A stretch of DNA of 64,000 bases, taken from Anaerolineae bacterium. Lineage in GTDB: Bacteria; Chloroflexota; Anaerolineae; Aggregatilineales; UBA3940. Below the pieces are notes generated by a model that was not told where the DNA came from, did not search any database, and saw only the letters and a list, made by a program, of their open reading frames with translations. The position numbers and the translations under genes are program-made. This document shows, piece by piece, positions 29,744-33,973 of this stretch (positions are counted from its first letter, which is position 1; each line of letters begins with the position of its first letter). Location of the stretch: contig JAFGOY010000018.1 in assembly GCA_016926255.1 (NCBI GenBank), positions 55,541-119,540 of the forward strand. Direction: 5' to 3'.

Positions 29744-29885
29744 TAGTTTTACCTCCTTCGACCGACCTGCGGTCGGCCAAGCGACGTTTTCTGTCGTCCA
29801 CTTTCCCCAACCCCCTTCGCCGCTTCGCGGCACTTCCCCCTTTCAGGGGGCAGGTGGGGCACGAATTGTAAGATTCGAATGACAG
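29744..29885. repeat. Extended family A repeat (shares upstream segment with 35498-35625)
   Basis: ccttcgaccgacctgcggtcggcc...gacgttttctgtcgtcca...ccccaacccccttcgccgcttcgcggcacttccccctttcagggggcaggtggggcacgaattgtaagattcgaatga. Confidence 0.65.
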
Positions 29886-29928: not shown

Positions 29929-29957
29929 CCGCACGGGTTTCACCCGGTGCGGTTTTT
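29929..29957 (+). terminator. Rho-independent terminator after kinase
   Basis: CCGCACGGGT-ttc-ACCCgGTGCGG then ttttt. Confidence 0.8.
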
Positions 29958-29971
29958 GTCGTATACTGACC

Positions 29972-30013
29972 GTGGGAGCGTTTCGGTACGATCCAGACGC
30001 ACACTATCGAATT
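29972..30013 (+). repeat. 42-nt module repeat, copy 1
   Basis: GTGGGAGCGTTTCGGTACGATCCAGACGCACACTATCGAATT; 37/42 to copy 2, ungapped. Confidence 0.9.
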
Positions 30014-30047
30014 GCTGGTTAGTGGTAGCCTGAGAGAAAGAATCAAA

Positions 30048-30809
30048 ATGAAATTATCGAAGGTGCAAAAAGTGGTGGTGATCGGTATTGCGGTCATTGC
30101 CATTATCCCACTGGGCATGATTGTCTGGGCCAAGACCGGGACATATGAGGCTGGCGATACGGCGCTGGCCGCTCTTGAATCCAGCGAGACGGTGACGGTC
30201 ACTCAGGATCAGTGGATCGTGTTCGATCCGGCGGATGACCCAGAAATCGGGTTGATATTCTATCCGGGCGGGCTGGTCGAGCCGGGGGCGTATGCACCGG
30301 TCCTGCATCAGATTGCCGAAGAAGGGGTGCTGGTCGTCATCACACCGATGCCGCTTAACCTGGCTATACTCAACACCAATGCCGCCAGCAGCGTCATCGA
30401 CGCATACTCTGATATTTCAAGCTGGATACTTGCCGGTCACTCATTGGGCGGGGCCGCTGCCGCCATCTATGCCGAAAACAACCCTGAATCGATCAGTGCG
30501 CTTGTCTTCTGGGATTCGTACCCTCCTGAAAGTGCCGATTTATCTGACAATGACATCCCGGTGCTGTCTATATATGGCACGATGGATGGCACTCCAAACA
30601 CAGACAATTTCGACGCTCGCCGCCACCTTGTGCCAGGGGATACCATGTTCATCGGCATCGAAGGCGCGAACCATGCCCGGTTCGGTGATTACGGCCCGCA
30701 GAAAGGCGACGTGGCCGCGACGATCAGCATGGATGAACAACACGACATTGTGGTCGACATCATGCTCGACTTTATTGATCGAATCTCGTCAGACACCTCG
30801 GCCCCCTGA
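30048..30809 (+). CDS. Alpha/beta hydrolase
   Basis: LIFYPGGLVEPGAYAPVLHQIAEEGVLVVITPMPLNLAI...WILAGHSLGGAAAAIYAENN (GHSLGG). Confidence 0.88.
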   Translation: MKLSKVQKVVVIGIAVIAIIPLGMIVWAKTGTYEAGDTALAALESSETVTVTQDQWIVFDPADDPEIGLIFYPGGLVEPGAYAPVLHQIAEEGVLVVITPMPLNLAILNTNAASSVIDAYSDISSWILAGHSLGGAAAAIYAENNPESISALVFWDSYPPESADLSDNDIPVLSIYGTMDGTPNTDNFDARRHLVPGDTMFIGIEGANHARFGDYGPQKGDVAATISMDEQHDIVVDIMLDFIDRISSDTSAP

Positions 30810-30843
30810 TTTCACCCCCGCGCCCATTTTGACGTAACTGAGC

Positions 30844-30885
30844 GCGGGAGCGTTTCGATACGATCCAGGCGCACACAATCGATTT
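30844..30885 (+). repeat. 42-nt module repeat, copy 2
   Basis: GCGGGAGCGTTTCGATACGATCCAGGCGCACACAATCGATTT; 39/42 to copy 3. Confidence 0.92.
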
Positions 30886-30905
30886 TCTACACCGGGAAGT
30901 GAAAT

Positions 30906-31550
30906 ATGTACGACCAATCACCATATACACAGAACTTCGTTTCAGTCAGCTTTTTCGAAGCAATCTACGAGACGGATCACGCTAAGCAAGTTCTGCTGTG
31001 GGAATCAAGAACAGATGCACAAGGAAAAACTACGTTATTCACGGTTCTTGATAAACAAGAGGTCCGAGTGGGCTCTCTCCAAGAGTTCTTGTTGTCGCAA
31101 CGGATTAATACGACATTGTCGATCCGGCACAGTGTGAACATTATTTTGAATAGTGTTTCTAAAAAGGCAGAATTGGTGGAATATTTCATGACGACCTCGG
31201 AAACCCCACCACATAAGGTGCAAACCAAACTAACACTGGTTGTTGACGATAGGGAATATAAAACCGAAGAGTGTGACACACTAACTGATGCTATGTGGGA
31301 ACTACATGAAATCGTTGGTGAGGACGTAGAGTGGAGTCTATGTACTTGCTATGATTGTTTCTATTGCTCTCAAGCGTTTAATAGCCCACGGTATGATGAC
31401 CGGGATGGCTATCGCTGCTATCGGGAGGATCAAATAGCGCTTAATGAGGTCCGACAGAAACACAAGTTTGCCAGTGCCGATGCGTTACTGAGCGGACACT
31501 ACTTTGTGCATGCATTTCATACGTGTGCTGCATGGAAAGACAATGACTGA
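30906..31550 (+). CDS. Hypothetical protein, DUF6304-like Cys-rich C-terminal region
   Basis: AT-rich ORF; SLCTCYDCFYCSQAFNSPRYDDRDGYRCYR. Confidence 0.7.
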   Translation: MYDQSPYTQNFVSVSFFEAIYETDHAKQVLLWESRTDAQGKTTLFTVLDKQEVRVGSLQEFLLSQRINTTLSIRHSVNIILNSVSKKAELVEYFMTTSETPPHKVQTKLTLVVDDREYKTEECDTLTDAMWELHEIVGEDVEWSLCTCYDCFYCSQAFNSPRYDDRDGYRCYREDQIALNEVRQKHKFASADALLSGHYFVHAFHTCAAWKDND

Positions 31551-31632
31551 CACCATTTGTCGATAGATTCGAACAATAGCAAATTCTCTCTTAATCAATA
31601 GATCACTGATACGAGTCAGTAGGATCATAACA

Positions 31633-31674
31633 GCGGGAGCGTTCCGATACGATCCATACGCACACAATCGATTT
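31633..31674 (+). repeat. 42-nt module repeat, copy 3
   Basis: GCGGGAGCGTTCCGATACGATCCATACGCACACAATCGATTT. Confidence 0.92.
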
Positions 31675-31730
31675 ACCTTGCGCCTATCCGGGTTTTGGGA
31701 GCACACCGGACGATCAGGAGGGAGCAATTC

Positions 31731-32288
31731 ATGGAACCATTGGAATTGTCGTTAGAACTCGAACGCAAAGACTTCACAAGAATCATACGATGGAACCTGC
31801 TTCGCCTGCGACCCTTACTGGTAGGCTCATTGCTTATGGCGTTTGCGATGGTTGTATGGTATATAGCATTGACCACAGTAGCAGAAAATCACCCAGAGGT
31901 GATTGGTGCCTTCTATTGTTGTCCAACCATTTTGATGTTCCCCGCCGTTCTCTATTGGATTATTCTGCCTATCACTATCGGTATACGATCAAAAAAGATG
32001 CACGATAAAGAAGCGCCAATAACCTGGATTCTGGATGAAGAGCATTTGCAGATTAGTTCAGCCTCGACCGAGGTAAAACACAAGTGGTCGAAATTCAAAA
32101 GAGTTATCGAGACAAAAACCGATTACTGCTTTCTGTCGACTGGAAAGCAGGCTGTTCAGTTCATGCCAAAATCATGTTTCGAATCGGTGGAACAGGAACA
32201 ACGCTTCCGCCACATCATAGAAACCGGGGTTGGAGCTATCAAGCAAAAGGGAATCAAGCGTCCGGCTCAAGGCGATGAAATTCTCTGA
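31731..32288 (+). CDS. YcxB-like membrane protein
   Basis: Two TM helices then WILDEEHLQISSASTEVKHKWSKFKRVIETKTDYCFLSTGKQAVQFMPKSCF. Confidence 0.72.
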   Translation: MEPLELSLELERKDFTRIIRWNLLRLRPLLVGSLLMAFAMVVWYIALTTVAENHPEVIGAFYCCPTILMFPAVLYWIILPITIGIRSKKMHDKEAPITWILDEEHLQISSASTEVKHKWSKFKRVIETKTDYCFLSTGKQAVQFMPKSCFESVEQEQRFRHIIETGVGAIKQKGIKRPAQGDEIL

Positions 32289-32625
32289 ACACACCGCAAG
32301 ACACTTGGAAAAGAATAAACCTGTTGCGGCGATAATCACTCCAAATCGTGATAATCACCGTGCGTGGGTAGCTGTATATAAACTAACTGAGCGTTCTATT
32401 TCCAAAAGATTACATCCAACAAAGAAGTATATTGTCAGAAGAATTGAAGTCAGCGAAGAGTATTTGCAGAAATATGAAGATGGCTTTGATTTAGTGTATA
32501 GCCATTGTACAGAAACGGAAATAGTGTATATCGAAAACGATGAAGAACTCGAAGAGGTTCTTGGAAGATGGGTGCCAGATTTGAATGTATTCAAGCCATC
32601 GTGGCAGGTAGACTATCCGTTTTAA
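32275..32625 (+). CDS. Hypothetical small protein overlapping the upstream gene by 14 nt
   Basis: AT-rich ORF, ATG preceded by aagg; no family recognised. Confidence 0.6.
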   Translation: MKFSEHTARHLEKNKPVAAIITPNRDNHRAWVAVYKLTERSISKRLHPTKKYIVRRIEVSEEYLQKYEDGFDLVYSHCTETEIVYIENDEELEEVLGRWVPDLNVFKPSWQVDYPF

Positions 32626-32655
32626 TAGTTTGTTTAGTATGAAAGGCTGTGATTG

Positions 32656-32674
32656 TTACACACACAATCGATTT
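32656..32674 (+). repeat. 42-nt module repeat, 3' partial copy 4
   Basis: ttACACACACAATCGATTT; CACACAATCGATTT identical to copies 2/3, ending 3 nt before terminase stop. Confidence 0.6.
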
Positions 32675-32676
32675 AG

Positions 32677-33915
32677 CTACACCACCGCAATCCCCAGCAT
32701 CAGCCGCGGCCTCGACGCCGCCTGCCACGCCAGCGCCAGCGCGATCACCGTGTCGTCATGTAATCCCGGCGGCGCGAAATAGCGCGTGTGGCCCGTGTGC
32801 CGCACGATATCGTAGGTATACGATCCCAGCTCCCCGATCAGCACCGGGTCGGGCATCAGGAGGACGTCCTGCTCCTCGATGGCCTTCACCAGGTTCTCGA
32901 TCAGCGGGCCTTTGCTCTTGGGCGTCGTCATAAATGCCTCGACCGGCAGGCCCATATCACGCAGCGCCTCGATGTTCGGCTCACCCATCGCGTTGGCTTC
33001 GGCCAGGATCGTCTCGACCTGCCAGTGCTTCGCCAGCTTTGCGATCCGCTCGCGCTGCGTCACCCAGTTCGACTCGCTGAAGCGGTCGAGCGCCACCAGC
33101 CAGGGCGCGGACGACCGGTCGGCGTCGATCACCGCCAGCGCGGTAAAGTCGACGTAGCGCCCGAAGTCGACGCCCATGTAGGTGCGATGCCCCCGGATCG
33201 GCTGCGGCGGCGGATCGAGGGGGACGGTCGCCGCCTGCTTGACGCCGCGAAAGACCGTCCCGCCGTCCTCGATGAATTCGGCCAGATATTCCTGCTGAAA
33301 CGTCCGCGCCGGGAGAATCGCCTTCATCTGGTCGAGTTCGCCCGGCAGGATGATCGTGTTGGCCGAGGTGGGATATCGCCACGACTGCCAGTGCGGGATC
33401 AGCGGGTCCTGCCCGCGCTGGAAGGCTTCCCAGAACCAGTTGCGACCGCAGGGGGTGGAGATCAGCAGCGCCCGGCCCTGCCGGTCGGAGAGGGCGGGGA
33501 GCAGCACCGCCTCCCAGGTCCGCCGGTCGACGTAGGCCGCCTCGTCGACGATCACGAGGTCGAGGCCGACCCCGCGCAGCAGGTCGGGATTGTCGGCGGT
33601 CTTGACCGTAATCGACCCGCCCCCCGGCAGTTCGATATAGCGTTCCGCTTCGCGCTTCATCTCCCATTGATCTTTGAACGCGGCCTTGAGAATCAGCCAG
33701 GGGTGGAAGGCCAGCGAATACGACGGGGCCACCCACCATACATCCCGATGCCGGTTGGCGGCGGCTAACTGTGCCATCCGCAGCCCCATCGACGTTTTGC
33801 CCCATCGACGCCCGCAGGCGACGACCTTGAACCGCGCCGGGTGCAGGGCAATCGACAGCTGATCGCGGCGCAGGGAGTGGATCAGGCGGTGCGCCGGTTT
33901 CGTTTTTTCGGCCAT
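32677..33915 (-). CDS. Phage terminase large subunit-like ATPase/nuclease (orphan)
   Basis: VVACGRRWGKTS Walker A, GLDLVIVDEAAYV Walker B, LLISTPCGRNWFWE, MGVDFGRYVDFTALAVID, HDDTVIALALAWQ. Confidence 0.92.
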   Translation of the reverse strand: MAEKTKPAHRLIHSLRRDQLSIALHPARFKVVACGRRWGKTSMGLRMAQLAAANRHRDVWWVAPSYSLAFHPWLILKAAFKDQWEMKREAERYIELPGGGSITVKTADNPDLLRGVGLDLVIVDEAAYVDRRTWEAVLLPALSDRQGRALLISTPCGRNWFWEAFQRGQDPLIPHWQSWRYPTSANTIILPGELDQMKAILPARTFQQEYLAEFIEDGGTVFRGVKQAATVPLDPPPQPIRGHRTYMGVDFGRYVDFTALAVIDADRSSAPWLVALDRFSESNWVTQRERIAKLAKHWQVETILAEANAMGEPNIEALRDMGLPVEAFMTTPKSKGPLIENLVKAIEEQDVLLMPDPVLIGELGSYTYDIVRHTGHTRYFAPPGLHDDTVIALALAWQAASRPRLMLGIAVV

Positions 33916-33973
33916 AGGTCTCCTTTGGGACGAATCAAACGATTCCAGAGTCACAAAATAGATGCGACGTTTT

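Follow-up and report, generated by a model that had tools for sequence, protein, structure and literature searches.

A promoter-like block followed by a leader occurs at about seven places in this 4.6-Mb genome (82 contigs) of Chloroflexota-like gene content, mostly right before unrelated, foreign-looking genes. Judging from sequence, we think it probable (roughly 0.6) that a promoter together with its 5' leader was copied within the genome in front of unrelated, apparently horizontally acquired genes. The element looks like a case of within-genome promoter copying rather than a new gene-capture machine. Three full copies form an array on contig C40, in the 64,000-nt stretch of DNA analysed here (the window).

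Repeat copies in the array

An initial sequence-only reading of the window had reported three gap-free 42-nt copies and a 3' partial copy. Our analysis bore this out, with ungapped copies at 29972-30013, 30844-30885 and 31633-31674, all on the + strand, and a 3' fragment of 17-19 nt at about 32656-32674 (Table 1). At best, two ungapped 42-mers of the region agree at 39 of 42 positions; in 30 sequences simulated from a first-order Markov model of it, the maximum was 28 of 42. The 21-nt core GGGAGCGTTTCGATACGATCC occurs three times at ≤3 mismatches against 0.01 occurrences expected by chance. The full copies had been placed 21-57 nt before start codons, and we likewise measured about 20-56 nt from the end of a copy to the ATG (30048, 30906 and 31731); the 3' fragment has no gene downstream on the same strand. 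Similarity between copies 1 and 2 reaches upstream to about 29938 and 30811, respectively, so the repeat unit is longer than 42 nt, at about 65-75 nt.

By eye, a possible second, degenerate repeat core (GGGAGCACACCGGACGATCAGG) lies at 31690-31730, directly before the start codon of the YcxB-like gene; it is absent from the matches of the repeat-model search. A separate REP-like dispersed repeat (CCCCCTCTGACCGACCTACGGTCGGCCATCTCCCCCAGAATTG and variants) was seen in several intergenic regions (window 29750-29870, L003:1440-1500 and the upstream region of L025).

Table 1. Positions of the element and of the genes behind it. Coordinates without a contig name refer to the window.
Feature	Position	Strand	Remarks
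Putative promoter block, copy 1	29938..29979	+	TTCACC-17-TATACT, then GACCGTGGGAGC
Putative promoter block, copy 2	30811..30851	+	E 3.0e-6; -10 is GTAACT, one base shorter
Leader repeat, copy 1	29972..30016	+
Leader repeat, copy 2	30844..30888	+
Leader repeat, copy 3	31633..31677	+	own upstream promoter block diverged
Leader repeat, 3' fragment	32656..32674	+	11.3 bits, E 0.015; CACACAATCGATT exact
Alpha/beta hydrolase (module 1)	30048..30809	+	PF12695, E 1.5e-53; GC3 0.65
214-aa protein, no known family (module 2)	30906..31550	+	GC3 0.45
YcxB-like gene (module 3)	31731..32288	+	PF14317, E 1.4e-11; GC3 0.49
Hypothetical gene (module 3)	32275..32625	+	overlaps YcxB-like gene; GC3 0.36
5' block alone	C52:3852		just upstream of WD40 lipoprotein ORF
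5' block alone	C55:159224		just upstream of AbiP2-like reverse transcriptase ORF
5' block alone	C32:37495		just upstream of second WD40 lipoprotein ORF

A promoter-like block and a putative leader

The element consists of two parts, a 5' promoter-like block of about 42 nt and a 3' leader. The 5' block follows the pattern TTYnCn-17-TATACT-like + G(T/C)GGGAGC, and we read it as a putative promoter because a TT-rich hexamer precedes its TATACT by 17 nt. The 3' part runs from GGGAGCGTTYCGRKACGATCCA to CACACAATCGATT, is restricted to the array and one decayed copy at C32:46268, and would form the transcript's 5' leader.

With a model of the block, the copy 1 block was recovered before copy 2 and at the three loci on other contigs (Table 1). 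The sequence-only reading had pointed to -10-like strings just before each copy in favour of a duplicated promoter or leader. This applies to the TATACT of copy 1, which lies within a 42-nt block recurring at three other places, each just upstream of a same-strand ORF. The -10 region of copy 3 has diverged. The duplicated promoter/leader option itself gained support, since the block with TATACT is repeated before three other same-strand ORFs. A consensus scan labelled 29939-29967 as promoter-like. Two points count against a promoter: its -35 hexamers are weak, and scanning the whole region yielded no more promoter calls than shuffled sequences do.

Other sites in the genome

At six of the seven main sites, a start codon on the same strand follows about 20-100 nt downstream. 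A genome search with the repeat copies revealed one extra full-length but decayed copy (C32:46268-46321), which is about 9 nt short at the -10 region and begins about 17-20 nt past the stop codon of an ORF for a 204-aa lipoprotein. A TetR gene starts about 190 nt downstream. Read by eye, this gene carries a separate TTGACA-17-TATCAT promoter together with a palindrome resembling an operator, which makes the decayed copy a probable orphan. Its position behind the lipoprotein gene, with no obvious target and a better promoter at the TetR gene, is a further point against the promoter reading.

Partial matches to the copy model, at C52:3865, C55:159239 and C32:37509, cover only the 5' part (ATTTTGACGTATACTGRCNGTGGGAGC or near). 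Past GGGAGC these three sites diverge, which is what a promoter with exchangeable leaders would predict. A further model, made from the 5' part of five copies, recovered its five source sites genome-wide at E <= 3e-6 and no further site below E 0.6. With no other site in the genome scoring near these, the block is not a general housekeeping promoter; the earlier reading would have been undermined by repeats upstream of many housekeeping genes, and this was not seen.

The two WD40 lipoproteins that carry the block share 52% protein identity, while their promoter block is almost exact. Three WD40 lipoprotein paralogues (L051:3918-5849, L051:8346-10361 and L050:3602-5518) are about 50-54% identical, and two of them share the block, L051:8346 being without it. 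The AbiP2-like reverse transcriptase (DRT group) is split, with its N-terminal part at L052:11320-11784 (end of C55) and its C-terminal part at L051:96-1139 (start of C52), so these contigs are probably neighbours.

Genes downstream of the element

The alpha/beta hydrolase and YcxB-like labels given from the sequence alone were both supported by Pfam (Table 1). The label "DUF6304-like" for the module 2 protein found no support, as a Pfam search at E <= 10 gave only a non-significant 0.03; NCBIfam, PADLOC and PHROG gave no match either. A single homologue of this protein, at 41% identity, turned up among 395 other genomes of the class; it belongs to a different family of the order, and no such array accompanies it. 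The hypothetical gene of module 3 gave no significant family match. Homologues of the module 1 hydrolase were found in 41 of 100 relatives, and none of the 19 fetched carries the leader.

Modules 2 and 3 are AT-richer than their surroundings, as first noted, with GC of 0.44, 0.45 and 0.39 for their genes against 0.64-0.66 in the kinase and terminase genes on either side. Third-position GC in the genes behind the 5' block is the lowest in the roughly 104 kb sampled (GC3 0.45-0.65; median of the other ORFs, 0.75). A one-sided Mann-Whitney test against 72 other ORFs in this sample gave p = 4e-6, a value to be taken only as a guide because the background is a small set of mechanically chosen ORFs that includes the sites themselves.

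Next to the array, a large-terminase gene (window 32677-33954, - strand) has homologues in 32 of 60 relatives, several of them followed by a portal-like ORF. The gene after the terminase is missing here, which suggests an old prophage-like remnant that is widespread in the order.

Distribution beyond this genome

The repeat-copy model gave nothing convincing in 153 other genomes of the order, and BLAST of the repeat against 100 relatives gave no match. A weak match to the repeat model in one genome (G058) was rejected as it resembles coding sequence. The 5' pattern gave only scattered one-mismatch matches in relatives, the majority reading as coding sequence, and the family itself yielded no counterpart of the 5' block. 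Six exact-core matches in GTDB contigs and IMG/VR were set aside as chance, having flanks unlike the repeat. Copy 1 had no match in the phage collection, two proteins tried against the plasmid collection had none, and no viral relatives of two module proteins were found. The nearest genomes compared are of different genera; their proteins are about 60% identical and their gene order differs. When synteny was followed through the terminase, its homologues in relatives lay in other surroundings and no empty site was found.

Alternative explanations

The main rival is a small regulon, in which the block would be the site of a specific regulator or alternative sigma factor and its similarity would be kept by selection rather than reflect recent copying. 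We regard this as unlikely. It would account for conservation over about 42 nt, including positions past the -10, for an imperfect dyad (GGAGCGT-N6-ACGATCC) in the leader core with the palindromic AATCGATT, and for the likely defence gene, the AbiP2-like reverse transcriptase, in the set. However, the lack of a block counterpart in the same family, and a 3' leader common only to the array and one orphan copy, speak against it. The array also has no linked regulator gene, and the TetR gene on C32 has a separate operator-like palindrome.

The sequence-only reading had also proposed a modular acquisition site. In this form, a tyrosine recombinase encoded elsewhere would act on the repeat as the site of a small cassette system, in which a module is one site plus one gene. 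The array does resemble integron cassette arrays (attC/attI) in its head-to-tail single-gene modules of 0.8-1.0 kb, parted by a repeat and holding foreign-looking genes of atypical GC. Its right end carries a partial site, an orphan site lies directly behind another low-GC gene on C32, and the arms of the dyad could serve as core arms. The genome holds seven tyrosine-recombinase matches, with PF00589 on C23, C62, C6 and C48. Yet none lies on C40, and the six recombinases tested all fell below the TIGR02249 cut-off for integron integrases. Inspection by eye found no attC core sites (RYYYAAC...GTTRRRY) in the repeat region. DNA and RNA folding of the copies stayed at shuffle level. Checked for covariation, the consensus fold had no pair changed on both sides (0 of 6 predicted pairs), and an Rfam search of the region gave no match; the RNA structure that a covariance check might have revealed was not found. 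Unlike in integrons, the repeat heads the gene and is promoter-like, and its 5' half also stands alone ahead of other genes, something that a recombination site would leave unexplained. The acquisition-site option thus has no positive support, and we consider a cassette system improbable. Gene modules of the pdif/Xer type also have direct repeats with an imperfect dyad beside small modules. The dif consensus is 11-6-11, whereas the dyad here is 7-6-7, and no linkage to Xer is seen.

It is highly unlikely that ordinary tandem segmental duplication, with the genes replaced afterwards, left a repeat with no functional role: three adjacent copies in one orientation with a 3' remnant at the edge fit this, but the likeness ends at the leader, short of the genes, and the 5' block also occurs at three unlinked loci, always before a gene. 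Equally doubtful is a lineage-specific form of gene capture, in which the 60-70 nt promoter-leader would be both insertion site and expression signal, so that a captured foreign gene would gain a ready promoter and leave a new copy of the site.

Proposed promoter copying and its relation to mobile promoters

Under the preferred reading, promoter-leader copying, the promoter would span about -35 to +10 and be followed by a 5' untranslated leader, with the host polymerase starting near G(T/C)GGGAGC. Behind the leader, each gene would retain its own ribosome-binding site. Duplication of the unit, as two AT-rich genes settled beside the hydrolase gene, may have given rise to the three adjacent full copies, and deletions would have left the 3' fragment at 32656 and the C32:46268 orphan as remnants. 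Homologous or illegitimate recombination is the presumed copying route.

Such copying within this lineage is the most economical account, in keeping with the idea of putative mobile promoters, or promoter propagation (Matus-Garcia, Nijveen and van Passel, 2012, as cited in PMC8049555 and PMC9208149). Putative mobile promoters are short promoter-like repeats, several per genome, upstream of unrelated genes. The near-identical promoter-like sequence described here likewise precedes genes of unrelated families. It differs from them in its added conserved leader, in its partly head-to-tail array and in that it marks low-GC genes.

Taken alone, a shared promoter block does not demonstrate a new mobile system. 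Genes that enter a new host must come to be expressed there, and how they do so is an open question. The unrelated low-GC genes that share one rare block here, a likely phage-defence gene among them, offer a concrete case for testing promoter copying.
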